Assembly: GCA_018241505.1 (NCBI GenBank)
Contig: JAFEDS010000035.1
Span: forward strand, 1-62,267
Source of the DNA: Pseudomonadota bacterium
Lineage (GTDB): Bacteria > Pseudomonadota > Gammaproteobacteria > Steroidobacterales > Steroidobacteraceae
Length of the DNA: 62,267 nucleotides
Direction of reading: 5' to 3'
Below the pieces are notes generated by a model that did not search any database, was not told where the DNA came from, and worked only from the letters and a program-made list of their open reading frames with translations. Shown in pieces: positions 2-13,150 of this stretch; the stretch's first letter is position 1; the number at the start of each line of letters is the position of its first letter. The position numbers and the translations under genes are program-made.

Positions 2-739
2 GACCCCGCCAACATGAAGACCCATGCCAAGCGCTCCGGCACCGACTGGATTCTCAACGGCGCCAAGATGTGGATCACCAATGGCTCCATTGCCGATCTG
101 GCCGTGGTGTGGGCCATGACCGAGGAAGGCATCCGCGGCTTCATTGTCGACAAAGGCATGCCCGGCTTTGCCGCCACCGAGATCGAGCATAAGTTCTCCC
201 TGCGCGCCTCGGTCACCGCAGGCCTGTTCTTCGATAACGTGCGGGTGCCTGAAGAGAATGTCCTGCCGGGGATCGTCGGGCTCAAAGGCCCCCTGTCCTG
301 CCTCACCCAGGCCCGCTACGGCATTGCCTGGGGGGTCATCGGAGCGGCCCAGGCCTGTCTGTCCCAGATGCTCGACTACACCCATGAGCGGGTGCTCTTC
401 GGGCGCACCCTCGCCCACAACCAGGCCATCCAGATCCGTCTCGCCGAGATGGCCCGCCAGATCACCACCGCGCAGTTGCTCGCGCTGCAGTTGGGACGCT
501 TGAAGGACTCCGGCCAGATGACCCCGGCGCACGTCTCACTCGCCAAGTGGAACAACTGCCGCATGGCCCTGGACATCGCCCGCGATGCCCGCGACATGTT
601 GGGGGGGGCCGGCATCAGTGCCGAATATGTCCCCATCCGTCACATGCTCAACCTCGAAAGTGTCATCACTTACGAGGGCACCGAGACCATTCACCAGTTG
701 ACCATCGGGCGCGCGTTGACCGGCGTCAACGCGTTCTAA
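2..739 (+). CDS. Glutaryl-CoA dehydrogenase-like acyl-CoA dehydrogenase (5' end outside window)
   Basis: The frame is open to the left edge, so this is the C-terminal 245 residues of a protein that in this family is usually about 390-400 residues. Flavoprotein acyl-CoA dehydrogenases remove two hydrogens from an acyl-CoA; the glutaryl-CoA branch also decarboxylates its product to crotonyl-CoA. Visible signatures are the WITNG segment of the middle beta domain, the RVLFGRTLAHNQAIQ helix and, near the end, VITYEGTETIHQL followed by GRALTGVNAF. The Glu of YEGT is the expected catalytic base, and this ending closely resembles glutaryl-CoA dehydrogenases as I remember them. It converges with iorB 97 bp downstream. 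Its place beside the aminobenzoyl-CoA genes suggests it handles a dicarboxylic or glutaryl-type intermediate, but other acyl-CoA substrates are possible. Confidence 0.85.
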   Translation, partial: DPANMKTHAKRSGTDWILNGAKMWITNGSIADLAVVWAMTEEGIRGFIVDKGMPGFAATEIEHKFSLRASVTAGLFFDNVRVPEENVLPGIVGLKGPLSCLTQARYGIAWGVIGAAQACLSQMLDYTHERVLFGRTLAHNQAIQIRLAEMARQITTAQLLALQLGRLKDSGQMTPAHVSLAKWNNCRMALDIARDARDMLGGAGISAEYVPIRHMLNLESVITYEGTETIHQLTIGRALTGVNAF

Positions 740-836: not shown

Positions 837-2399
837 CTACGCGGCGCGGCCAGTGCCAGTAGCGGGCGCGGCTGACGTCGCGGGCCCGCCCAACGCCGCA
901 ATCTCACGTCGCAGCGAGTTGCCCTCTTCATCCGCCAACGCGGCCTCAATCAACCGCGCCATTACCGTGCCGCCGTCCGACCGGCCGGTGAGCGCCTCAA
1001 CCTGACCCAACAGTGTGGTGAAATTCCGCCAGCCGCGCTCGTGCGTCTCGCCATACCCTTTCACCAGTCGCTGAGCCTTGGCGAGCTGTACCGCGACCAG
1101 GTAGTTATCCTTCGCGACGCTCTCTATCTTCGCCAACCAAATTTCAATGCGGGCATTCTCTTCGTGAAACCGCAGAGTTTTGCGCCGCCAGCGCTTGAAC
1201 CCGGCCAACACATACAACAACGCGAAACCGCGCAAGGTGCGCGTCTTGATCTGCCGCCCGGAGGTGTGTTTCGCGAGCCAACCGCTCAATCCCGGTGAGC
1301 CCAGGATCCAGCGTCCGAGGCCCGCCGGCATCGTGCCCGCGATTTCCTCCACCCGCGGCTTCATGAACTCGGTGATGCCGAACAACTGATTGGCATCCGC
1401 CCGGATCTCGTCCTTGACGCGTGCGAACCGCGAGCCCCGGATCTTCAGGTCCGCAACCCGGATCGTGTCCTCGAACGTCATCCACAGCGCCAGGCTGCGC
1501 GCAACGGCTTCCAACAGGGCATAAGAGCTTGCATCGGCCCACAGGCGGGATTCGAGCGCCACCACGCTTTCCACGCGATCGAGGTAGCTTTCCGCGTACT
1601 CTGGATCCTGGTAGTCCAATGCGCGCCGGGCGCCTTCCAACACGAGCGGCTGGACGGCAGCGGGAAGCCGCTTGATGCGCTCGAGCACCGGCTGCAATCT
1701 CGCCGAGCGCGCCTGCGTTGGCAGATCCGGAAGCGGCTTGCTCACCGCCTTGCCCGTGAAGCCGCTGTCGCCGCGCTGAGCACTCTGGAAAGCGTCCTCG
1801 AAGGCGGCCAGGTTGGTTGCGACCGCAATGCCGCTTTTCCGGATGGTTTCCTGGAAATTCGACTTGCGGAACGGCAGCACGCCGGCCCCGCACAAAGCAC
1901 CCAACATCACGGAGCTGACCACACTGTGATTGCGCTCCGCCGTTTCATTCATATCGAAGAGCACGACCTTCTGCGCATGGCTGCGCACCATGTTCAGCAG
2001 ACCCTCGGAGTCCGCAGCGCCCTGCCCCATTGCGCTCTTTTCAGCGACAGCATAGCTGCGATGCGTCGACGCAATCAGTGTCGTGCGGTCGGAAGTCACG
2101 AGCCCGCGTTGGATCGCACGGCCGGCCTCCGCCAGCTCCGAGGCAATCACGCAATCAACATCACCCGGGACCGGCATCAATGCCAGGATGGGCGCACGCC
2201 CTGCCTGTTCAGCCGCGGCCCGCGGGAAAAACTCGAGGTAGTAGATGGTGGCGCCGGTGCGCTGCGCCACGCCCGGCACGGACGTCGATTGGGCAATGTA
2301 GTTTTCGGACTCGGCGATCTCAATCAGCCAGTCGGCGAGAACCCCACCACCCTGCCCGCCCAACGCGGCGATTGTCAGCTTGATCGGACGGTCGGTCAT
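837..2399 (-). CDS. iorB: Indolepyruvate:ferredoxin oxidoreductase-type beta subunit
   Basis: The protein has 520 residues. The N-terminal 190 or so residues are the pyruvate:ferredoxin oxidoreductase gamma-type domain, with ALGGQGGGVLADWL at the start and SVPGVAQRTGATIYY after it. The rest is the long C-terminal domain seen in the roughly 500-residue proteobacterial beta subunits, not the 200-residue archaeal form. With IorA it should oxidatively decarboxylate an aryl 2-oxoacid to the acyl-CoA. The open frame continues 58 codons upstream, but the ATG at 2399 overlaps the iorA stop as ATGA, so I place the start there. It is the third gene of the tightly coupled operon cyclase-iorA-iorB. The true substrate is unknown; indolepyruvate is only the family label. 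Confidence 0.88.
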   Translation of the reverse strand: MTDRPIKLTIAALGGQGGGVLADWLIEIAESENYIAQSTSVPGVAQRTGATIYYLEFFPRAAAEQAGRAPILALMPVPGDVDCVIASELAEAGRAIQRGLVTSDRTTLIASTHRSYAVAEKSAMGQGAADSEGLLNMVRSHAQKVVLFDMNETAERNHSVVSSVMLGALCGAGVLPFRKSNFQETIRKSGIAVATNLAAFEDAFQSAQRGDSGFTGKAVSKPLPDLPTQARSARLQPVLERIKRLPAAVQPLVLEGARRALDYQDPEYAESYLDRVESVVALESRLWADASSYALLEAVARSLALWMTFEDTIRVADLKIRGSRFARVKDEIRADANQLFGITEFMKPRVEEIAGTMPAGLGRWILGSPGLSGWLAKHTSGRQIKTRTLRGFALLYVLAGFKRWRRKTLRFHEENARIEIWLAKIESVAKDNYLVAVQLAKAQRLVKGYGETHERGWRNFTTLLGQVEALTGRSDGGTVMARLIEAALADEEGNSLRREIAALGGPATSAAPATGTGRAA

Positions 2400-4540
2400 A
2401 TTGCGAGCCGGTGCCGCTCGCTGCGTCGCTGCAGAGCCCCGATGATGGATGAGCGTACCGAATTCATGAATCGATCCCAGCGCGAGGGGTTGTAGACCAA
2501 CTCGGCGCGATAAAATGAGGGGCATAGAACGGCGGCGTGCGCCACTTCGCCGCACACACCACACCCGACGCAACTGTTGTCAACGTGGGCCACCGGATCA
2601 GTACGCAACGGATCGGGATTGTCCTTCACCGTCAATGAAGGACAGCCGGACAGGCGGATGCATGAGTGATCGCCCGTACAAGTGTCCGGGTCGACACCAA
2701 AGCGTTCGCGCACGACTCGCTGCCCGTCCTTGATGGCCTTGCGTATCTGGGGCTTGATGCGCCGTTGCCGGTTCAACTGGCACTCGCCCTCGGCCACAAT
2801 GACCTTCGGACCTTTCAGCGGAGTTCGCAGCGCCTCGCGCAGCACCTTCAACGTGCCCTGCATGTCATAGGTGCGAGTGTGCTTGATCCACTTGACGCCG
2901 ACACCCTTCACCGCATCGACAATCGTATTGTTGCCCTGCCGGTGCTCGTTGGCCCAGCGCGATGAGGGAATATCCTGACCGCCGGTCGCGGCCGAATAGT
3001 TGTTATCGATGATGACCGTCAGGTCGTCATGCTTGTTGAAGACAGCGTTGCCGATTCCACTTGTCAACCCGTTGTGCCAGAAGCCGCCATCACCCATGAC
3101 CGCGACTGCCCGCTTGCCGCCATCAGTTCCGAAGGCGGACGCGCTTGCCGCACCCAGGCCGTAACCCATGATGCTGTTGCCCATGTTGAATGGGGGCAGG
3201 GTTGCGAAGGAATGGCAACCGATATCCGCGCTGATGTGCAACGGACCGGTTTCCTTCTGGAGGATCTTCATTGCGGCAAAGAACGGACGTTCCGGACAAC
3301 CCGTGCACAACCCCGAGGGCCGTGGGGGTACCAGGGCCGCCAGTTTCGCCGCGGACTCCGCCGAGACCTGGGTCTTGCGGGCGGGCGGGATCTTGCCGTC
3401 GGCACGCAACTGCGGGGCAAACTGATCAATGAAGCGGCTGATGCCCGTGCGCACCGCATCGACGGTGTATTCGCCGAACCGCGGCAGAACTTCCTTGCCT
3501 ACGATCCGGGTATTCACGCCGGCCTGATGCAGCATCTGTGTGGCCGCCTGCTCGATGAATTCAGGTTGCCCCTCTTCCACCACCAGCACGGCGCGCTTGC
3601 CACTGCAGAACTTCACCCACTCATCGGCAACCAGCGGATAAGTCGCATTCAACACATAGAGCGGAATGCCGCTGTTACCGAACGTATCGGCGCAACCGAG
3701 CAGCTCCATTGCACGCAAGGCACTGTTATACAGACCACCCTGCATGACGATGCCGATGTCGTTGACATCGCCATCAATGAATTCGTTGAGGCCCGACCGG
3801 GAAATAAATTCGACCGCCGCGGGCAGCCGCTTCTCAACCTTCTCTTTTTCCTGAGCAAACGTCGACGGCGGCAGAATGATCTTGCCGTAGTCACGCGCCG
3901 GAGCGGCCAGCGCATCGGCCGCCGAGAACGACGGCTTGCGGTTGTTTTTCGCCGGAAACATGCCGTGCACGTGACAGGCACGAATGCGCAGCATCAGCAT
4001 GACCGGCGTGCTGCTGGCTTCGGACAACTCGAAAGCTTTCTCGACCATCCGGGTGATGGCGGGCAACTGCGGCCGTGGATCCAGCAGCCACATCTGCGAC
4101 TTCATGGCAAAAGCGTGGGTACGCTCCTGCATGATGCTCGCGCCCTCACCATAATCCTCACCGAGGATGATGAGAGCACCGCCCTTCACCCCCGAAGAAG
4201 CAAGGTTTGCCAACGCATCGGAGGCCACGTTGGTGCCGACTGTTGATTTCCAGGTGACCGCACCGCGCAACGGATAGTTGATTGATGCGGACAGCATCGC
4301 GGCGGCGGTCGCTTCGGATGCGCTGGCTTCGAAGTGCACACCCAGCTCGTTGAGGATGCCTTCGGCATCGGCGAGCACGTCCATGAGATGCGAGACGGGC
4401 GCGCCTTGGTAGCCACCTACGTAGGCGACGCCCGACTGCAGCAGAGCCTTGGTAACCGCGAGAATGCCCTCGCCATGGAACTCGTCGCCCTCTCCCAGGC
4501 GTAGCTTCTCAACTTCCTTGGCAAAAGAGCGTTCGGCCAT
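2396..4540 (-). CDS. iorA: Indolepyruvate:ferredoxin oxidoreductase-type alpha subunit
   Basis: The protein has 714 residues, the usual alpha-subunit size. It carries the pyrimidine-binding domain first (GGYQGAPVSHLMDVL) and the thiamine diphosphate domain in the second half (GDGGFWHNGLTSGI, then IIDNNYSAATGG). A C-terminal iron-sulfur region holds CTGDHSCIRLSGCPSL and CVGCGVC with a later CP. These features support CoA-dependent, ferredoxin-linked oxidative decarboxylation of a 2-oxoacid. The gene starts one base after the upstream cyclase stop and overlaps iorB by four bases, so the three products are probably made together. Such enzymes are often oxygen-sensitive, yet the neighbouring monooxygenase needs oxygen; this version may be the oxygen-tolerant long form of aerobic proteobacteria. 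Confidence 0.9.
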   Translation of the reverse strand: MAERSFAKEVEKLRLGEGDEFHGEGILAVTKALLQSGVAYVGGYQGAPVSHLMDVLADAEGILNELGVHFEASASEATAAAMLSASINYPLRGAVTWKSTVGTNVASDALANLASSGVKGGALIILGEDYGEGASIMQERTHAFAMKSQMWLLDPRPQLPAITRMVEKAFELSEASSTPVMLMLRIRACHVHGMFPAKNNRKPSFSAADALAAPARDYGKIILPPSTFAQEKEKVEKRLPAAVEFISRSGLNEFIDGDVNDIGIVMQGGLYNSALRAMELLGCADTFGNSGIPLYVLNATYPLVADEWVKFCSGKRAVLVVEEGQPEFIEQAATQMLHQAGVNTRIVGKEVLPRFGEYTVDAVRTGISRFIDQFAPQLRADGKIPPARKTQVSAESAAKLAALVPPRPSGLCTGCPERPFFAAMKILQKETGPLHISADIGCHSFATLPPFNMGNSIMGYGLGAASASAFGTDGGKRAVAVMGDGGFWHNGLTSGIGNAVFNKHDDLTVIIDNNYSAATGGQDIPSSRWANEHRQGNNTIVDAVKGVGVKWIKHTRTYDMQGTLKVLREALRTPLKGPKVIVAEGECQLNRQRRIKPQIRKAIKDGQRVVRERFGVDPDTCTGDHSCIRLSGCPSLTVKDNPDPLRTDPVAHVDNSCVGCGVCGEVAHAAVLCPSFYRAELVYNPSRWDRFMNSVRSSIIGALQRRSERHRLAI

Positions 4541-4541
4541 A

Positions 4542-5327
4542 TCAGGCGGGTACCAGCGCCAACACGCGCAACGGGCTGCCCGAGCCGTTCACGATCTTCA
4601 ACGGGGGAGCAACCACCACGGCGCCGGTGGGCGGCAGTTGGTTGAGGTTGGTCAGGCTGGCGAGGCCGAACTTGTTGGATCCGTGCATGATGGTGTGACA
4701 GGGAAACGCCGGATCGAAGCGGTACGCCTGCCCGGCATCGGTGCCGACCGTCTCAACTCCAACGCCGAGAATGTCGCGTTCCTTGGCCAGGAACGGGACG
4801 CACTTAGGATCGAATCCCGGGGTGTGAGGGCCGTCTTCCCTGGCGTTGAAATATTGCGCGCCTTTGCGCTGGGACCAGTCCGTGCGGATGAGCACCCAGG
4901 CGTGGGAAGGAATGCGGCCGTGCTTCTTCTCCCACTCCTCGATGACCGGTTGGGTCAGAAGGAAGTCGGGATCGGCCTTGGCACGATCGGCGACGTCAAT
5001 GACACAGGCCGGGCCGACAAAGCGGTCGACCGGGATGTTGTGCGTCGCATTGTTGGGATGGTCCTTGCCGGTGACCCAGTGGACCGGGGCATCGAAATGG
5101 GTGCCGGTGTGCTCACCGCATTCGATATTGTTCCAGTACCAGCCGGGGCCGCGCTCGTCGTAGCGCGAAATCTCCTGCAGCGCGAACGGCTTGGAATTCG
5201 CAAACGGCGGCGGCAGGTTGATGATGGGGGTAGCCGGTTCCAGGGGAACGGTCAGGTCGACTACACGGATGCGGCCGGAAACGATGCCGGCGGCGAGCTG
5301 GGCCAGGGTTTCAACAGGAGTGCTCAT
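4542..5327 (-). CDS. Cyclase-family metal-dependent hydrolase (isatin hydrolase or kynurenine formamidase-like)
   Basis: The 261-residue protein carries the family metal motif as EHTGTHFDAPVHW near residues 72-84 (HxGTHxDxPxH), which binds manganese or zinc in kynurenine formamidase KynB and in isatin hydrolase. KynB proteins are shorter, near 210 residues, while isatin hydrolases are about 250-260, so size favours the second group. It is the first gene of an operon with iorA and iorB and sits head-to-head with the aminobenzoyl-CoA monooxygenase gene. Either activity would make an ortho-aminophenyl compound that feeds that pathway: formamidase gives kynurenine, isatin hydrolase gives isatinate. 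No signal peptide is seen. The substrate is inferred from context only. Confidence 0.75.
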   Translation of the reverse strand: MSTPVETLAQLAAGIVSGRIRVVDLTVPLEPATPIINLPPPFANSKPFALQEISRYDERGPGWYWNNIECGEHTGTHFDAPVHWVTGKDHPNNATHNIPVDRFVGPACVIDVADRAKADPDFLLTQPVIEEWEKKHGRIPSHAWVLIRTDWSQRKGAQYFNAREDGPHTPGFDPKCVPFLAKERDILGVGVETVGTDAGQAYRFDPAFPCHTIMHGSNKFGLASLTNLNQLPPTGAVVVAPPLKIVNGSGSPLRVLALVPA

Positions 5328-5365
5328 GGGTGGTCAGTTCTCGCAAAATATAGGCGAAAGAATAA

Positions 5366-5394
5366 TTGACACCTGAAGTAGTTGGCAATATAAC
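5366..5394 (+). promoter_or_regulatory. Sigma-70 promoter of the aminobenzoyl-CoA operon
   Basis: TTGACA at 5366-5371 and TATAAC at 5389-5394 are separated by 17 bases, one base away from consensus overall. It points towards the monooxygenase gene at 5443, with transcription expected near 5401 and a leader of about 42 bases. A purine-rich AAGGGGG lies about 10 bases before the ATG. The opposite operon must start in the same 115-bp divergent region; TATATT read on the minus strand near 5349-5354 is a possible -10. Confidence 0.72.
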
Positions 5395-5399
5395 ATACG

Positions 5400-5409
5400 C
5401 AGCATGCTG
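5400..5409. promoter_or_regulatory. Candidate operator palindrome
   Basis: CAGCATGCTG is a perfect 10-bp palindrome lying where transcription from the promoter at 5366-5394 should begin. A repressor bound here would block that promoter. The MarR-family regulator encoded in the same operon (8519-9025) is the obvious candidate. MarR sites are usually 16-20 bp, so this may be only the core of the site. Confidence 0.35.
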
Positions 5410-5442
5410 GCGATATGGTTGCCACAAGGGGGTTGAGCCAGG

Positions 5443-7725
5443 ATGAGGCGAATCGTTTGCTTGGGCGGCGGCCCTGCCGGACTGTACGCCGCCATTCTGC
5501 TCCGTAAGGCGCTTCCGCAGGTCCGGGTGGAAGTATACGAGCGGAACCGCCCGGACGACACGTTCGGCTGGGGCGTGGTCTTTTCCGACCAGACCATGGG
5601 GAATTTCCGCACCGCGGACCCGGAAAGCCACGACGCCATCACCGGCAGCTTCCATCATTGGGACGATATCGCCATCCACTTCGGGGGCCGCCGGTTCGTG
5701 AGCGGCGGGCACGGATTCGCTGGAATCAGCCGCAAACGCCTCCTGAACCTGCTCCAGGAGCGGGCCCACGAGCTCGGGGTACACCAGACCTTCCAGCACG
5801 AGGTCGCCGATCTGAACGATTTGGGCGACGCGGACCTGCTGATCGCGGCCGACGGCGTGAACAGCCGGACCCGCAACACCCATAAAGACGTCTTCGAGCC
5901 GGACGTCGATGTGCGCAAGTGCCGCTTCATCTGGCTGGGAACCACCCAGAAATTCGATGCATTCACGTTCGCTTTCGAGCAGACCGAGCACGGTTGGTTC
6001 CAGATCCACGCCTACCAGTTCAGCCGGGACCTCTCGACCGTCATTGTGGAAACGCGCGAAGAGACCTGGAAGGCGCATGGCCTGGATCGCGCCAATACGG
6101 CACAGTCGATCGCCTTTTGTGAGGGACTGTTCGGTAAGTACCTGAATGGGCACTCCCTGCAGAGTAACGCCAATCACCTGCGCGGTTCGGCGTGGCTGAA
6201 TTTCAACCGCGTCGCCTGCAAAAACTGGCACCACGGCCGCACCGTCCTGATCGGCGATGCCGCCCACACAGCACACTTTTCCATTGGCTCCGGCACCAAG
6301 CTCGCCATGGAAGACGCCATCTCGCTCGTCAAGCACGTCACCGCCACCAATGATTTCGACGCCGCGCTCGGCGCGTATCACAAGGAGCGAAACGTCGAAG
6401 TGCTCAAGCTTCAAAGCGCCGCCCGCAACCGCATGGAATGGTTCGAGAACGTCGCCCGGTACGTGCATCTGCCGCCGGAACAGTTCGCCTACAGCCTGTT
6501 GACGGGCAGCCAGCGAATTGGCCATGAAAACCTGAAATTGCGCGATCCGAAGTTCGTGGCTGGCTACGAGCAGTGGTTGGCGCGGCAAGACGGTACTGAC
6601 GAGGGGCGCCCTCCCATGTTCTTGCCGTTCAAGCTGCGGGGTCTGGAACTGGTTAATCGGGTGGTGGTCTCGCCGATGGCGCAGTACTGCGCACAGGACG
6701 GGCTGCCCACCGACTGGCATCTGGTCCACTACGGCCATAGGGCGCTGGGCGGAGCCGGTCTGGTCTATACCGAAATGACGTGTGTTACGCCGGACGGCCG
6801 CATTACTCCCGGCTGTCCGGGATTATGGAATGCGGCGCAGCGGGACGCGTGGCAGCGGATTGTTGAATTCGTCCACGCCAACTCACCCGCCAAGATCTGC
6901 CTGCAGTTGGGACACGCCGGACGCAAGGGCTCCACCCAGATCGGCTGGGAAAAAATGGATTACCCGCTGCCCGAGGGCAACTGGCCCATCCTGGCGCCCT
7001 CGCCCCTGCCCTATTACGCCGGCATCAGCCAGGTGCCGGTGGAAATGTCTCGAGCGGACATGGATGAAGTTCGGGAGGCGTTTGTACGGGCCACCCGTTA
7101 TGGCCTGCAAGCGGGCTTCGACATGCTCGAGCTGCACATGGCGCACGGCTATCTGTTGGCGTCGTACCTCTCGCCGCTGACCAACCTGCGCACTGACGAG
7201 TACGGCGGCAGCGTCGAAAACCGGTTGCGGTTTCCGCTCGAAGTGCTCGAAGCTGTCAGGAAGGAGTGGCCGGTCGACAAGCCCCTGTCCGCGCGCATTT
7301 CGGCGACCGACTGGGCCGACGGCGGCCTGAGCGAAAATGACGTGCTGACTATTGTGCGTGCATTGCGCAAGGCGGGGCTCGACATGATCGATGTCTCGAC
7401 CGGACAAACGGTGCCCCACCAGAAGCCCGTGTACGGACGGATGTGGCAGACACCGTTTGCCGACCGGATCCGCAATGAAATCGGCATCGCGACCATGGCT
7501 GTTGGCAACATCTATGAGTGCGATCACGTCAACTCGATCATTGCAGCCGGGCGCGCCGACTTGTGCGCCATCGCACGGCCGCACCTGTCCAACCCGGCCT
7601 GGACCCTGGACGCCGCCGCATCGCAGGGTTATCGCGAGCAATGGTGGCCGCCGCAGTACCTCTCGGGTAAGAGTCAGCTCGAGCGCAACAAGGAGCGCGC
7701 CATACCGGTGGAGACGAAGATTTGA
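5443..7725 (+). CDS. 2-Aminobenzoyl-CoA monooxygenase/reductase-type fusion flavoprotein
   Basis: The 760-residue protein fuses two flavoenzymes. Residues 1-385 are a class A FAD monooxygenase: [15 protein letters not shown] near the N-terminus, [13 protein letters not shown] in the middle and [17 protein letters not shown] for the FAD ribityl site. Residues from about 390 are an Old Yellow Enzyme barrel: [39 protein letters not shown] and [11 protein letters not shown]. This architecture is known from the Azoarcus evansii enzyme that hydroxylates 2-aminobenzoyl-CoA at C5 and reduces the ring to a non-aromatic oxo-cyclohexene product, and from salicylyl-CoA 5-hydroxylases. The beta-oxidation genes downstream favour the aminobenzoyl role. 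It heads the plus-strand operon behind a strong promoter, and the next gene starts inside its stop codon. Confidence 0.88.
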
Positions 7726-8507
7726 GCATCCGCAGGACGCAACTTGCCGGCTTGCATGCGGTAGTGACCGGTGCCAGTCGCGGCATCGGCGCTGATATCG
7801 CCGCTGCATTGGTTGCTGATGGCGTGCGCGTTTCGCTACTGGGACGCGATGCCGAGGCGCTGCGGCGTGTGGCCGACCGTCTGGGCGGCGACGAACACGC
7901 GCGATTCATGACAACGGATGTTACGGACTGCGACTCGGTCGCCCAGGCGTTCGAGGCCGCGCGCGGTCAATTCGGCCCCGTTCAACTGCTCATCAACAAT
8001 GCGGGCCAGGCTGCGAGCGCCAAATTCACGGACACTGACGAGAAGTTGTGGAACCAGCTATTTGCCGTCAACCTCCACGGCACTTACGCCTGCTGCCGGC
8101 AGGCGGTTCCCGACATGTTGAGCGCCGGCTTCGGCCGGATCGTCAACGTAGCGAGTATCGCGGGCCTGCGCGGAGCCGCGTATATTTCCGCCTATGTCAG
8201 CTCGAAACACGCAGTCATCGGCCTGACTCGTGCACTGGCATTGGAATATGCCGCCCGCAACATCACGGTGAATGCCGTGTGCCCGGGCTATGTGGATACG
8301 GATATCGTCAAGGGTGCGATTGCCAACATTGTCAGCAAGACCGGCCGCAGCGAGGCCGACGCGCTCGCTGCCCTGGTGGCGAACAATCCGCAACGCAGGC
8401 TGATCGAGCCCCGGGAAGTCGCCGACACCGTGATGTGGCTGTGCCGGCCCGGCTCGGAAAGTGTGACCGGCCAGAGCATCGTCCTGGCCGGCGGCGAAGT
8501 GACTTGA
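7722..8507 (+). CDS. SDR-family dehydrogenase, probable hydroxyacyl-CoA dehydrogenase
   Basis: The 261-residue short-chain dehydrogenase has the dinucleotide motif TGASRGIG near residue 16, NNAG in LLINNAGQ, the catalytic Ser in VNVASIAGL and the YxxxK pair as YVSSKHA. Proteins of this type oxidise a hydroxy group with NAD(P), and in CoA-linked aromatic pathways they serve as 3-hydroxyacyl-CoA dehydrogenases. The start is a TTG overlapping the preceding stop (TTGA), which implies translational coupling to the monooxygenase. The operon order of monooxygenase, SDR, hydratase and dehydrogenase is that of a modified beta-oxidation. The exact substrate cannot be read from the sequence. Confidence 0.85.
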
Positions 8508-8518
8508 GGAGGGGGAAA

Positions 8519-9025
8519 ATGCCAAAAGAAAAGAGCTCGCTCAAACTGATCGAGCCGCACGTCGACGCGGAAACGCGTGTCCACGACGATCATCACCTGT
8601 CCGTGCGCCTGTGGCTGCGGATGTTGAGTTGTACCAATCGCATCGAAAACTTCGTGCGGCAGAAGCTGCAGGCGAATTTCGAAACGACCCTGCCGCGCTT
8701 CGACCTGATGGCGCAGTTGGAGCGCGCGCCGCAGGGCCTGAAGATGAGCGAGTTGTCCCAACGCATGATGGTCACCGGCGGCAACGTCACCGGTATCACC
8801 GACGGCCTGGAAAAGGAAGGCCTGGTGGTCCGCGAAGTCGACCCCTCCGACCGGCGCGTATTTCGCGTGAAGCTGACCGCGGACGGCCAGAAGCAGTTCC
8901 GGCGCATGGCGGGCGAGCACGAGCAGTGGATCATCGGGCTGTTCGATGGCATGAGCGCGAAACAGAAAAACCAGCTCACCGACCTGCTGGGTGAGCTCAA
9001 ACAACACATCGGCAAACATGACTGA
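8519..9025 (+). CDS. MarR-family transcriptional regulator
   Basis: The 168-residue protein has the winged-helix core of MarR repressors: [23 protein letters not shown] as the recognition region and then [15 protein letters not shown] as the wing with the conserved DxR. MarR proteins bind palindromic DNA as dimers and commonly release it when they bind an aromatic acid or aryl-CoA. I chose the ATG at 8519 because GAGGAGGGGG stands just upstream; the same frame is open further upstream but lies inside the SDR gene. Its place inside the operon suggests it controls the divergent region at 5328-5442 in response to a pathway thioester. Confidence 0.9.
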
Positions 9026-9821
9026 TATCCAGCCGCAGCACTTTCTCTGGCGCCAGGAAGGCCGCGTCGGTGTGATCACCCTGAACCGGCCGGAGCGCAA
9101 GAATCCTCTGACGTTCGAGTCGTATGCGGAGCTGCGGGATTTGTTCCGCGAGTTGGTGAAGGTCGATGAGGTTCGCACCATCGTGCTGACGGGCGCGGGA
9201 GGTAACTTCTGCTCCGGCGGCGATGTGCACGAGATCATCGGGCCCCTGACGAAAATGAACTATGCGGGGTTGCTCGACTTTACTCGGATGACGGGTGATC
9301 TGGTCAAAGCTATGCGCCATTGCCCGCAACCCATTATCGCCGCGGTCGATGGTGTTTGCGCGGGTGCCGGTGCGATTCTCGCGATGGCGTCGGATCTTCG
9401 CATTGGCACGCCGCGCACCAAAACGGCGTTCCTGTTTACCCGTGTTGGACTTGCCGGATGCGACATGGGCGCTTGCGCCCTGCTGCCGCGGATCATCGGG
9501 CATGGGCGCGCCGCCGAGCTGCTCTACACCGGTCGTTCGATGTCGGCGGAGGAAGGCGCGGCGTGGGGATTTTTCAATCGCGTGGTGGCGCCGGAGAATG
9601 TGTTGGAGGACTCGTTGCAACTCGCTCGCGAGTTGGCGGGCGGGCCGACCTTTGCGCACGCCATGACAAAGAAAATGCTGCACACGGAGTGGGATATGCC
9701 CATTGACGTGGCCATCGACGCGGAAGCCGAAGCACAGGCTGTCTGCATGCAGACGGAAGACTTCGCGCGTGCCTATCGGGCGTTTGCGGCCAAGCAGAAG
9801 CCGCAATTCGAGGGCAACTGA
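9018..9821 (+). CDS. Enoyl-CoA hydratase/isomerase family protein
   Basis: The 267-residue crotonase-fold protein shows the [11 protein letters not shown] start, the oxyanion-hole stretch [13 protein letters not shown], and [19 protein letters not shown]. In place of the usual Glu-rich loop it has [16 protein letters not shown], so an Asp may serve where hydratases use Glu. In this pathway it would add water across a double bond of a ring-derived or ring-opened CoA ester, or hydrolyse a cyclic keto-ester. The start is taken as the ATG that overlaps the marR stop by eight bases; a GTG nine codons earlier is an alternative without a ribosome-binding site. Confidence 0.87.
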
Positions 9822-9825
9822 GATC

Positions 9826-11088
9826 GTGCGCACGCGAGACTTCCTGGAGTGGCCGTTTTTTGCGCCCGCGCACCGGGAACTGGCTGAGCGGGTGGATGCG
9901 TGGGCGGCGGAGCGGTTCGCTCAGCCAGCGGGCAGCGGCGGCAGCCATCGCGGCAGCGCGGCGCACGCGGAGGATCGCGATTCGGTTGACGCGGCGTGTC
10001 GGCAGTTGGTGCGGGACCTCGGACGCGCGGGATGGACGCGGTATTCGGTGCCCGGGATGGCGCACGGGGCTGCGGCTAGCTCGGGCGCTGGGGCTGTCGG
10101 CGCCGACGCATCGCCTGCGTTTGATGTTCGCGCGCTTGCGCTCATCCGAGAAACACTGGCCTGGCACAACGGCCTCGCCGACTTCGCATTCGCCATGCAG
10201 GGCCTGGGCAGCGGCGCCATCACCCTCGCCGGTTCGCCCGCCCTCCAACAAAAATATCTGCCGCGCGTAGCAGCCGGCGAAGCGATTGCCGCATTCGCCC
10301 TATCTGAACCTGACGCCGGTTCCGATGTGGCGGCAATCAAGTGTAGCGCCAAACGCGATGGCGAGAGCTACGTGTTGGACGGCCAGAAAACCTGGATCTC
10401 CAACGGCGGAATCGCCGACTTCTACTGTGTGTTTGCGCGCACGAGCCCTGCTGAGCATCGCCCCGACGGTTCCGTAACCGCTCGCGGCATCAGCGCATTC
10501 GTCGTCGATGCCAACGCGCCCGGCTTTTCGATCGCCGAACGCATCGATGTGATCGCGCCCCACCCGCTCGCCACCTTGGCATTCGATGGCTGCCGCATTC
10601 CAGCGGCCAATCGACTCGGCGCCGAGGGCGATGGGTTCAAGCTCGCGATGCGCACACTCGATGTCTTCCGGACGTCGGTGGCCGGAGCGGCGCTCGGTTT
10701 CGCGCAGCGGGCTCTTGATGAGGCGCTGAAGCAATCCCTGGCCCGCCCGATGTTTGGCAAGACGCTCGCCGACCTCCAACTGACTCAAGCCGCCTTGGCG
10801 GACATGGCTACCGAAATCGACGCCGCACGCCTGCAGACTTACCGCGCGGCGTGGCTGCGTGATCGTGGCGACACAGTCACTAAAGAAGTGGCGATGGCGA
10901 AGATGAGCGCGACTGAGTCGGCACAACGTGCGATCGATCGCGCCGTGCAGATCTTTGGTGGCCGTGGCGTTGTTCACGGCGAGATCGTGGAGCACCTGTA
11001 TCGCGACATCCGCGCGCTACGCATTTATGAAGGTGCAACCGAAGTGCAGAAACTGATTATTGCCCGCGAGTTACTCAAGGCCCGATGA
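9826..11088 (+). CDS. Acyl-CoA dehydrogenase
   Basis: The 420-residue acyl-CoA dehydrogenase has [17 protein letters not shown] and [12 protein letters not shown] in the middle domain and ends with [19 protein letters not shown], where the Glu of YEGA is the expected catalytic base of the short-chain type. I take the GTG at 9826 as start, four bases after the hydratase stop, because the frame upstream lies inside the hydratase gene. The N-terminal helical domain contains a Gly/Ala/Ser-rich stretch (about residues 80-105, including [18 protein letters not shown]) where relatives have a short loop. It probably oxidises a ring-derived CoA ester and passes electrons to ETF. The next gene overlaps it by four bases. 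Confidence 0.87.
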
Positions 11089-11501
11089 ATCCCATGGCGA
11101 CTGAACGACACACTCTCAAACCGGCCCACTGGCCGCGCCCCAGCGGCTACAGCAATGGCATCGTGGCCACCGGGCGCCAGATATTCGTGGCCGGCCAGGT
11201 TGGCTGGGACGCCCACGGCAAATTCAACAGTGCGCGGCTCGCCGACCAGGTGAAGCAGGCGCTGCAGAACATTTGCGAGGTGCTCGCGGAAGCAAAGGCA
11301 GGGCCGGAGCATATTGTGCGGCTGACGTGGTATGTGACGAGCCGCGATGAGTACATCAGCGATCTGGAAGGCATCGGCGCGGCGTATCGCGAAGTGATGG
11401 GGAAGAACTTCCCAGTCATGAGCGTGGTGCAGGTGGTTGCGCTCATGGAGGCCAAGGCGAAAGTTGAAATTGAGGCCACGGCGGTGTTGCCGGGCGTCTA
11501 G
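11085..11501 (+). CDS. Rid-family (YjgF/YER057c/UK114) protein lacking the catalytic Arg
   Basis: The 138-residue protein has the Rid fold signatures: [40 protein letters not shown] and the C-terminal VEIEATAV. True RidA enzymes hydrolyse 2-aminoacrylate and other enamines or imines using an Arg equivalent to E. coli Arg105, in the segment FPARS. Here the matching segment is FPVMS, so that Arg is Met. This puts it with Rid subgroups whose chemistry is poorly defined. The ATG overlaps the dehydrogenase stop as ATGA. In this operon it might deaminate or tautomerise the enamine left when the aromatic ring of 2-aminobenzoyl-CoA is reduced; that role is inference. Confidence 0.87.
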
Positions 11502-11583
11502 GGAGCTCACGCAGCCCCCGCCCGGCGCGAAACCCTGAATCAGGCTCGCGCCGCGAACCCAGCACCGACGGGTAGCGCGGAAG

Positions 11584-11690
11584 CAGCACCAGCGGCAGCG
11601 CAAACCCAGCACCAGCACCGGCGGCGGCACAAACCAGCACTAGCGGCAGCGGCAGCACAACCCAACACCAGCGGCAGCGACAAAGCGAAC
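11584..11690. repeat. Degenerate GC-rich tandem repeat between the Rid and reductase genes
   Basis: About four imperfect copies of a 23-28-base unit start near 11584, 11607, 11635 and 11662. Each begins with CAGCAC or CAACAC and contains AGCGGCAGC-type triplets followed by an A-rich CAAACC-like end. They fill most of the 197-bp gap before the reductase ATG. No start codon precedes them in the reductase frame, so they are probably untranslated, although that frame has no stop through them. Confidence 0.6.
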
Positions 11691-11698
11691 ACCAACTC

Positions 11699-13150
11699 AT
11701 GTGGCGGCCACCGGAACGCATCAAGTACACAGCCAGCGGCGGCACTTGGCCAAGCGCCGCTGAAGCCGCCGCATCGCGCCTTTTCTCGCCGGTGCGCGTC
11801 GGCAAGCTGCAGTTGGCTCAACGCACCTGGGTCCCCGCCATGGTGCCGTGGCGCGCCAGCGAAGACGGATTCGTCACACCGGAAGTGCTCGAATGGTACG
11901 AGTGCTTCGCGCGTGGCCGCCCTGGTGCCATTGTTGTTGAGGCGACGGGAATCAGGGACGTGCCCAGCGGCCCGTTGCTTCGCGCCGGTCACGACCGGTT
12001 TCTGCCCGGGCTGCGCGACCTCGTCCGGGTTGTTCGCGAAGCCAGCGGCGGACAAACAAAGTTGTTCATTCAACTGATCGACTTCCTGTCGATCCGGCGA
12101 AGGCCGGTGCCCTCTCGCTATTTTGGGCAGTTCCTCGCCATCACGGCGCAACATCGAGCGGCATTCGGCGATCCTTCCGCATCGGATAGCGATGTCCGTA
12201 CGTGGTTGCTTTCGCTGGCACCTGAAGAAGCAGCCAAAGTTCTGGATGAAAGAGAGCTCGACGCCCTCGAGTTCGGGGCCCGCGAGCGCGTTACGGATAC
12301 TCATCTCGATCACATCCGCGATCTTCCGATCCACCTGCCCGGACTGTTCTCGGCAGCTTCTCGCCGCGCATGCGAGGCAGGATTTGACGGCATCGAGCTG
12401 CACTTCGCGCACGCCTACACAATGGCGTCCTTCCTGTCGCGATCGAACACGCGCGCCGACGGTTATGGAGGCGTAATCGCCGACAGGGTAAAGCTTCCCC
12501 TGGAAGTTTACTCACGAGTCCGCCAGGAAGTAGGTCCCGATTATGTGGTGGGTTGTAGGTTTCTGGCCGACGAGTGTATTGACGGCGGATCCAACTCCGA
12601 CGATGCCGTATATTTTGGAACCGAGTTTGCGCGCGCGGGCATGGACTTTCTGTCGCTGTCGCGGGGTGGCAAGTTTGATGATGCCAAACAGCCGAAGGTT
12701 GGCGATGCGGCTTACCCCTACACTGGGCGCAGCGGCTACGAATGCATGCCGTCGTACTACTCCGATGCGGCGGGGCCTTTTGGCAGAAACCTGGAGCCCA
12801 CGGCGCGAATTCGCGCGGCCGTGCGGGAGGCCGGGTTCGCCACTCCCGTCGTGGTCGCTGGCGGAATCCACAGCTTCGAGCAAGCGGAAAGCTGTCTGGC
12901 CGCTGAGCGGGCTGACATTATCGGCTTTGCGCGTCAGGCGCTGGCGGATCCGGACTGGTTTCGAAAGGTCGTGGGTGGGTGCGGGTCACAGGTGCGTTTG
13001 TGCCTGTACACCAACTACTGCGAGGCACTCGATCAGCGCCATCGGCAGGTCACCTGCGAATTGTGGGATCGCGAGGCGCTCGATGAGCCGGGCGTGAAGA
13101 AGTCCGCTGATGGCAAGCGAAGACTGACGCCGCCGGTGTGGCGGCCGTAG
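11699..13150 (+). CDS. NADH:flavin oxidoreductase, Old Yellow Enzyme/2,4-dienoyl-CoA reductase type
   Basis: The 483-residue protein has an OYE-like barrel: SRLFSPVRVGKLQLAQRTWV as first strand, then ELHFAHAYTMASFLS with the His-x2-His substrate pair, and SNTRADGYGG and GFARQALADPDW at the FMN phosphate site. Between the LFIQL strand and the catalytic His pair it carries roughly 75 extra residues compared with simple OYEs (from about 125 to 200, charged and Ala-rich). It ends with a Cys-containing stretch (VRLCLYTNYCEAL). About 30 residues precede the barrel; no good ribosome-binding site is seen before the ATG. It is a second reductase after the one fused in the monooxygenase and may reduce a later alpha,beta-unsaturated CoA intermediate. 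Confidence 0.8.
   Translation: MWRPPERIKYTASGGTWPSAAEAAASRLFSPVRVGKLQLAQRTWVPAMVPWRASEDGFVTPEVLEWYECFARGRPGAIVVEATGIRDVPSGPLLRAGHDRFLPGLRDLVRVVREASGGQTKLFIQLIDFLSIRRRPVPSRYFGQFLAITAQHRAAFGDPSASDSDVRTWLLSLAPEEAAKVLDERELDALEFGARERVTDTHLDHIRDLPIHLPGLFSAASRRACEAGFDGIELHFAHAYTMASFLSRSNTRADGYGGVIADRVKLPLEVYSRVRQEVGPDYVVGCRFLADECIDGGSNSDDAVYFGTEFARAGMDFLSLSRGGKFDDAKQPKVGDAAYPYTGRSGYECMPSYYSDAAGPFGRNLEPTARIRAAVREAGFATPVVVAGGIHSFEQAESCLAAERADIIGFARQALADPDWFRKVVGGCGSQVRLCLYTNYCEALDQRHRQVTCELWDREALDEPGVKKSADGKRRLTPPVWRP

Follow-up and report, generated by a model that had tools for sequence, protein, structure and literature searches.

Can isatin, which arises in the breakdown of the plant hormone auxin, be converted to 2-aminobenzoyl-CoA without a CoA ligase? 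This question is raised by a locus of a Pseudomonadota bacterium (Steroidobacteraceae; assembly GCA_018241505.1, 7.88 Mb, 93.9% complete; here G000). The window, that is, the whole stretch of 62,267 nucleotides that was analyzed (positions 1-62,267), begins at the first base of contig JAFEDS010000035.1 (here C28). On its minus strand, a cyclase-family gene, iorA, and iorB are tightly packed in this order; the gap between the cyclase gene and iorA is 1 nt, and iorA and iorB overlap in ATGA. Across 115 nt, this operon diverges from a second one, which begins with the gene of 2-aminobenzoyl-CoA monooxygenase/reductase (ABMR) and continues with genes for an SDR dehydrogenase, a MarR regulator, an enoyl-CoA hydratase, an acyl-CoA dehydrogenase, RidA, and an old yellow enzyme (OYE)-family reductase, up to position 13150. 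An initial annotation had described both operons, including the HxGTHxDxPxH motif of the cyclase, and our coordinates and family matches agree with it. A relative, L014, has the corresponding genes in the same order, with 64-83% identity to the window, indicating that the arrangement is not due to chance.

Judged from sequence, the locus probably encodes the lower section of an aerobic route for auxin/indole degradation, in which isatin is converted via isatinate to 2-aminobenzoyl-CoA by IorAB without a ligase; we put the probability of this reading at about 0.74. Isatin would be formed from indole-3-acetate, probably by an iad-type oxygenase set encoded on contig C17. The cyclase would then open isatin to isatinate (2-aminophenylglyoxylate), and IorAB may convert isatinate and CoA by oxidative decarboxylation to 2-aminobenzoyl-CoA, CO2, and two electrons, with no ATP spent in forming the thioester. 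ABMR would hydroxylate and reduce 2-aminobenzoyl-CoA to 2-amino-5-oxocyclohex-1-ene-1-carbonyl-CoA, after which RidA, the SDR dehydrogenase, the hydratase, and the acyl-CoA dehydrogenases may remove the nitrogen and feed beta-oxidation. The isatin hydrolase and ABMR reactions have been established elsewhere, in homologs, and are assigned here by analogy; the substrate of IorAB and all fluxes through the pathway are what we infer. The initial annotation had proposed the same sequence of steps, which is coherent: cyclase homology, gene co-occurrence, and the distribution of the ligase agree with it.

Isatin hydrolase homology of the cyclase

The window cyclase shared 57%, 57%, and 50% identity with the solved isatin hydrolases 5nnb, 5nmp, and 4j0n, respectively. 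All of its strong matches in the PDB were isatin hydrolases; cyclase 8f9x and several KynB structures scored far below. We take 5nnb and 5nmp to be LaIHA and RsIHA. Structure 4j0n is LaIHB (PMC6117287), and the metal motif and the pocket and catalytic residues compared here were taken from the same paper. The motif HxG[T/A]HxDxPxH is present as HTGTHFDAPVH, and H83, D197, and H211, the catalytic Asp-His-His, are identical in all three solved enzymes. Residues W63, W65, W84, and F208 each have an aromatic counterpart in the three structures (F at 63 in one of them and Y at 208 in two), and the position of Gln219 is occupied by Ala, as in LaIHB. By its sequence, the cyclase is an isatin hydrolase homolog, as the initial annotation had read it.

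Gene co-occurrence and distribution of the CoA ligase

A sample of 398 genomes of the phylum contained 25 with isatin hydrolase (E<=1e-50), 29 with IorA (E<=1e-100), and 68 with ABMR (E<=1e-150). IorA was present in 23 of the 25 isatin-hydrolase genomes compared with 6 of the 373 others (Fisher p 1e-29), and ABMR in 24 of 25 compared with 44 of 373 (Fisher p 2e-19), both values being uncorrected for relatedness. Counted by genus, isatin hydrolase occurred with IorA in 14/16 and with ABMR in 15/16. Exceptions were G237, which has neither IorA nor ABMR, and G327, which has ABMR and the ligase and no IorA.

GTDB contigs were scanned with an isatin hydrolase alignment, and the best 80 of at least 588 confirmed stretches were taken as loci, several of them short. 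Within the flanks examined, IorA or IorB occurred in 32 of these 80 loci, a split thiamine pyrophosphate (TPP) enzyme in 20, and both in none; the IorAB-bearing and split-TPP loci also differ in taxonomy. The initial annotation had proposed a search for the cyclase-iorA-iorB operon beside ABMR in other genomes. Here, ABMR was present in 8 of the best 80 flanks, together with IorA and IorB in 6 (L014, L023, L039, L044, L070, and L073), and all four genes also occur together in G376. An ABMR match was found in 27 of the 29 genomes behind the named isatin hydrolase loci (two partial). Locus L070, from the isolate Haliea sp. E1-2-M8, combines within about 20 kb a Rieske oxygenase (48% identical to the one on C17), an AMP-forming CoA ligase, a thiolase, RidA, isatin hydrolase, IorAB, and ABMR. 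Far from being an isolated case, the pathway recurs as a module of which part is known as the iad genes. In two Steroidobacter loci (L015 and L016), the isatin hydrolases are 75% and 73% identical to that of the window, and IorAB is not in the flanks examined; an amidohydrolase-family gene lies close to isatin hydrolase in L016.

If IorAB supplies ABMR, is the ligase dispensable? The ligase type in the flanks (at least 45% identity over 400 residues; the L075 ligase alone as query gave the same table) is presumably a 2-aminobenzoate-CoA ligase, given its place beside ABMR, including in Aromatoleum evansii. For the comparison, an IorA on the ABMR contig and no more than about 35 kb away was scored, by hand, as "IorA near", and the window's own ABMR was left out. 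Of 69 ABMR flanks, 62 were counted; the seven short ones omitted were L247, L257, and L261 (with ligase), L211, L213, and L263 (without, and incomplete), and L229, in which isatin hydrolase and IorA are near and the contig ends by ABMR. Of the 48 loci without IorA near, 42 had the ligase type next to ABMR, compared with 3 of the 14 with IorA near (p=6e-6); in 11 of these 14, it was not found. Over all 69 flanks, the proportions were 45/54 and 3/15; by genus, they were 27/33 and 2/9 (p 0.0016), with some genera falling in more than one cell. In G225, one ABMR copy has the ligase and the other has IorAB.

Genome-wide, the ligase was sought at E<=1e-120 in 34 isatin-hydrolase genomes, comprising the 25 of the phylum sample and 9 picked for IorA-bearing loci, most of the latter being metagenome-assembled genomes of unknown completeness. 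No close ligase was found in 15 of them: the window's genome, G237, G296, G055, G349, G376, and the nine picked genomes, which include the Haliea isolate. Of these, G296, G055, G349, and G376 are in the >=90% completeness class and have IorA and ABMR. The best match in the window's genome (2.7e-86, 35%) was rejected as a 2-aminobenzoate-CoA ligase; it is a benzoate-CoA ligase beside boxB/boxC. The bypass of the ligase proposed in the initial annotation would hold for this genome and for most IorA-near loci; it would not be the sole entry in the 19 of 34 genomes that have the ligase or in A. evansii. On sequence grounds, IorAB sometimes stands as the sole visible entry to ABMR, and it is often an additional one.

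These distributions also bear on a route through free anthranilate, in which isatinate would give 2-aminobenzaldehyde and then anthranilate, a CoA ligase would feed ABMR, and IorAB would be accessory or a decarboxylase. Loci L075 and L079 are built in this way, with isatin hydrolase, a TPP pair, an AMP-forming CoA ligase, and ABMR, and without IorAB in the flanks examined; C7H7NO, which we reckon to be the formula of 2-aminobenzaldehyde, and anthranilate are reported in Variovorax (PMC12633357), and the ligase type is widespread, as noted above. However, a close ligase was not found in the remaining 15 genomes, none of the best 80 loci had both the split TPP enzyme and IorAB, and the POR domain of IorB and the Fe-S ligands of IorA indicate an oxidoreductase. 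We therefore consider this route unlikely for the window. The split TPP enzyme beside isatin hydrolase (L075:8881-9989, L079:8758-9882, and 18 more loci; TPP_N and TPP_C are on two genes in L075) is itself a candidate isatinate decarboxylase.

IorAB and ABMR

The window IorB scored 660 bits against the IorB-like subfamily PRK08312 (cut-off 348). The indolepyruvate equivalogs were missed by both subunits, with 286.9 bits for IOR_alpha (cut-off 650.9) and 31.5 bits for IOR_beta (cut-off 205.8). IorA has the features of a 2-oxoacid:acceptor oxidoreductase, namely the TPP motif, the Fe-S ligands, and the fold; GDG, N513, and several Cys residues are invariant across 41 aligned IorA rows, including that of the window. 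No sequence relative of IorA was found in the PDB at 1e-3. A predicted model of IorA (mean predicted local distance difference test score, pLDDT, 78) matched chains of OorDABC and oxalate oxidoreductase with a template modeling (TM) score of 0.62 of target; the top rows by E-value in the fold search were other TPP enzymes, with TM about 0.2. Since the mean pLDDT is 78 and confidence is low at residues 516-531, beside the TPP motif, the positions that differ between two IorA clades were not mapped to the pocket and serve as a lead only.

A maximum likelihood tree was built from 53 IorA stretches of at least 600 residues without stops, of which six duplicates were dropped, leaving 47 rows; shorter stretches, including most Achromobacter and Aromatoleum loci, are not in the tree. 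A 100/100 branch separates 41 of the 47 rows from the other six. Of the 41, 39 come from isatin-hydrolase loci or genomes; the six represent five of the six genomes that have IorA and no isatin hydrolase, plus the second IorA of G319 (L307).

Could IorAB act on aryl pyruvates such as indolepyruvate and phenylpyruvate, its place beside isatin hydrolase reflecting co-regulation of tryptophan/auxin catabolism? The family name of IorAB suggests this, and the IorAB of A. aromaticum converts phenylpyruvate to phenylacetyl-CoA (PMC9765128). However, both indolepyruvate equivalog cut-offs were missed, the clade IorA tracks isatin hydrolase even in genomes in which no IadD-like oxygenase (E<=1e-80) was found, as was the case for 17 of 23, and IorA adjoins isatin hydrolase or ABMR in G376, G349, G322, G265, and G296. 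An aryl pyruvate substrate is therefore quite improbable, and the window IorAB is most likely an isatinate oxidoreductase.

The window's genome has a second IorAB pair at G000:C1:366064-369659 (L115:8065-11660), near hydantoinase-like, S-Me-THD-like, and amidohydrolase genes; its IorA is 62% identical to that of the window. The window IorB bears DUF6537, a domain of no known function.

ABMR scored 1261.6 bits against NF006101 (cut-off 1078), a model named salicylyl-CoA 5-hydroxylase/oxidoreductase. The two copies in A. evansii, for which the ABMR reaction and the aerobic 2-aminobenzoate-CoA chemistry are described in PMC4539516, share 61% and 62% identity with the window ABMR, which is the only full-length match in its genome.

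Relation to auxin degradation

Homologs of IadD (56% identity), IadE (51%), IadF (60%), IadG (69%), and IadH (55%) are encoded on C17, the iad names being given by annotation and by gene order in iad loci. The best structures for the C17 Rieske protein were 9o71 and 7yls/8h2t (about 1e-173), which we take to be IadD of Variovorax. An iad locus holds IadDE, iorAB, and isatin hydrolase together; here, they are split between C17 and C28, and neither isatin hydrolase nor IorAB was seen in a 20 kb stretch of C17. The iad-like upper auxin genes (Rieske pair, ligase, thiolase, and SDR) lie at G000:C17:53232-58859 (L114:7233-12860). Of the 25 isatin-hydrolase genomes, only 7 had an IadD-like oxygenase, suggesting that the isatin hydrolase-IorAB module probably serves other sources of isatin too. 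One locus, L225 (G071), has isatin hydrolase and ABMR with an amine-oxidase-like flavoprotein, a luciferase-like monooxygenase, and a peptide/nickel-type ATP-binding cassette permease, possibly reflecting another isatin source; no IadD-like oxygenase was found in 8 genomes of its genus (g117).

The iorA and iorB genes are known as iadA and iadB, exclusive markers of iad loci (PMC9613470), and were induced 30.7-fold and 7.64-fold, respectively, by indole-3-acetate in Bradyrhizobium (PMC3788728). In the iad literature examined, no reaction is given for IadAB, and auxin degradation is reported to end with anthranilate. The initial annotation knew of no description of the joined pathway. We found no paper joining isatinate to 2-aminobenzoyl-CoA, most matches being judged from listings, and within the scope of these searches the IorAB step appears to be unassigned; the iorAB genes themselves are not new to auxin degradation.

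PMC12633357 assigns IadC to IadJ, and its main text never names iadA or iadB. C8H7NO3, the formula of isatinic acid (PMC8383072), and C7H7NO accumulate strongly only in Variovorax strains overexpressing iadC-K2 (PMC12633357). As iadA is gene 72 and iadC is gene 70, iadAB would lie outside the iadC-K2 segment. The accumulation of C8H7NO3 without IadAB fits the proposed isatinate oxidoreductase but is not proof of it, because anthranilate was also restored in the iadC-K2 strain.

Assessment of the proposed route

Several observations weigh against the ligase-free route. The genomes compared are related, and hence are non-independent samples. IorA and isatin hydrolase do not always go together: G262 has an IorA of the isatin-hydrolase clade and no isatin hydrolase, the second IorA (L307) of the isatin-hydrolase genome G319 falls in the other clade, and the second IorA of the window's genome (L115) belongs to the isatin-hydrolase clade with no isatin hydrolase nearby. 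The ligase is kept in 3 of the 14 IorA-near loci and missing in 6 of the 48 others; it occurs somewhere in 19 of the 34 isatin-hydrolase genomes (19/25 unpicked and 0/9 picked), so that IorAB is often not needed to supply ABMR, and in A. evansii, the genes for ligase, ABMR, and IorAB are found in a single region. Because the window's genome is 93.9% complete and the contig stops where the window does, a ligase may have escaped detection. The Variovorax iadC-K2 strain regained anthranilate (PMC12633357), so that this acid can form without IadAB. A cyclase on contig C46 adjoining kynureninase, where an arylformamidase could be expected by position, had no NCBIfam match, TIGR03035 included, at E<=0.001.

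That the window cyclase is itself a kynurenine formamidase (KynB), the locus handling tryptophan via kynurenine and anthranilate, is hardly credible: KynB shares its fold family, it matches TIGR03035 (KynB arylformamidase) weakly, and two kynureninases over cut-off are encoded in the genome, but its 34.2 bits lie far below the 223-bit cut-off, its 57% identity is to isatin hydrolases as against weak KynB matches in the PDB, and all three kynureninase matches lie on other contigs. The KynB identity was rejected on the first two of these counts. Three further cyclases are encoded in the genome, two of them just 34-35% identical to isatin hydrolases. The C46 cyclase stands in a row with a flavin adenine dinucleotide (FAD) monooxygenase and a kynureninase (430 bits, cut-off 246) at G000:C46:139235-142677 (L121:7236-10678); without an arylformamidase match, it is a KynB candidate by position alone.

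The ligase-free route from isatin resembles several known systems. The iad loci of Variovorax, Achromobacter, and Bradyrhizobium (with iadI) share the isatin hydrolase and IorAB families and the isatin chemistry, and iad-like oxygenase genes lie elsewhere in the window's genome; however, the isatin hydrolase-IorAB operon of the window is divergent from ABMR and away from the oxygenase genes, and the published end product is anthranilate, as opposed to the 2-aminobenzoyl-CoA proposed here. The 2-aminobenzoate-CoA pathway of Azoarcus (Aromatoleum) evansii likewise has ABMR with SDR, hydratase, dehydrogenase, RidA, and MarR genes, but is entered by an AMP-forming ligase; in the window's genome, no close ligase was found and IorAB adjoins ABMR. 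The phenylglyoxylate-oxidizing complex of Aromatoleum has other subunits than IorAB. The window IorAB differs from it in being two-subunit and of the indolepyruvate type, the likeness lying in the conversion of an arylglyoxylate to an aroyl-CoA, benzoyl-CoA (PMC9765128). The IorAB bypass of A. aromaticum also leads from a 2-oxoacid to an acyl-CoA without a ligase, but is anaerobic and uses an aryl pyruvate (PMC9765128).

It also seems reasonably probable that the IorAB clade, IadAB included, is a widespread isatinate:acceptor oxidoreductase, that the aerobic isatin branch really yields 2-aminobenzoyl-CoA, with anthranilate as overflow or a side branch, and that IorAB and the split TPP decarboxylase plus ligase are exchangeable modules. 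If IorAB acts on isatinate, the role of the marker genes iadA and iadB would be filled, and the auxin pathway would meet ring degradation without ATP-dependent activation, anthranilate being a by-product.

Other features of the locus

The features are listed in Table 1. Promoter and repeat scans of the divergent intergenic region gave one weak sigma-70-like match on the minus strand (5388-5359), and no regulator site is claimed from them.

Table 1. Features at the left end of the window. Homolog counts refer to the 69 ABMR flanks, some of which are truncated.
Feature	Position	Strand	Basis and remarks
Acyl-CoA dehydrogenase	2..739	+	Cut by contig start; region to the left not visible
IorB, 2-oxoacid oxidoreductase beta/gamma subunit (POR domain) with DUF6537	837..2399	-	PF01558 51.5 bits, PF20169 151 bits; PRK08312; ATG at 2399
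IorA, TPP and Fe-S alpha subunit; proposed isatinate:acceptor oxidoreductase (CoA-acylating)	2396..4540	-	TPP_enzyme_C; IOR_alpha likeness
Isatin hydrolase homolog, cyclase family	4542..5327	-	PF04199 138 bits (cut-off 23.1); identity to solved isatin hydrolases
Divergent intergenic region	5328..5442	.	One sigma-70-like match
ABMR, FAD monooxygenase fused to OYE-type reductase	5443..7725	+	PF01494 and PF00724; NF006101
SDR dehydrogenase, proposed for alicyclic CoA-ester processing	7722..8507	+	PF00106; homolog in 53/69
MarR-family regulator	8534..9025	+	PF01047; homolog in 57/69
Enoyl-CoA hydratase/isomerase family	8991..9821	+	PRK08258 488 bits (cut-off 330); homolog in 55/69
Acyl-CoA dehydrogenase	9838..11088	+	PF00441 161 bits; start inferred; homolog in 49/69
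RidA-type, proposed enamine/imine deaminase that would free the amino group	11085..11501	+	PF01042; homolog in 46/69
OYE-family reductase	11699..13150	+	Homologs near ABMR in L014 and L023, and at 64% in L323 and L326

In the closest relative, the ABMR frame (L014:7560-9869) is broken by an in-frame stop in that assembly. The OYE-family reductase at the right end of the ABMR operon recurs near ABMR in the four loci given in the table.

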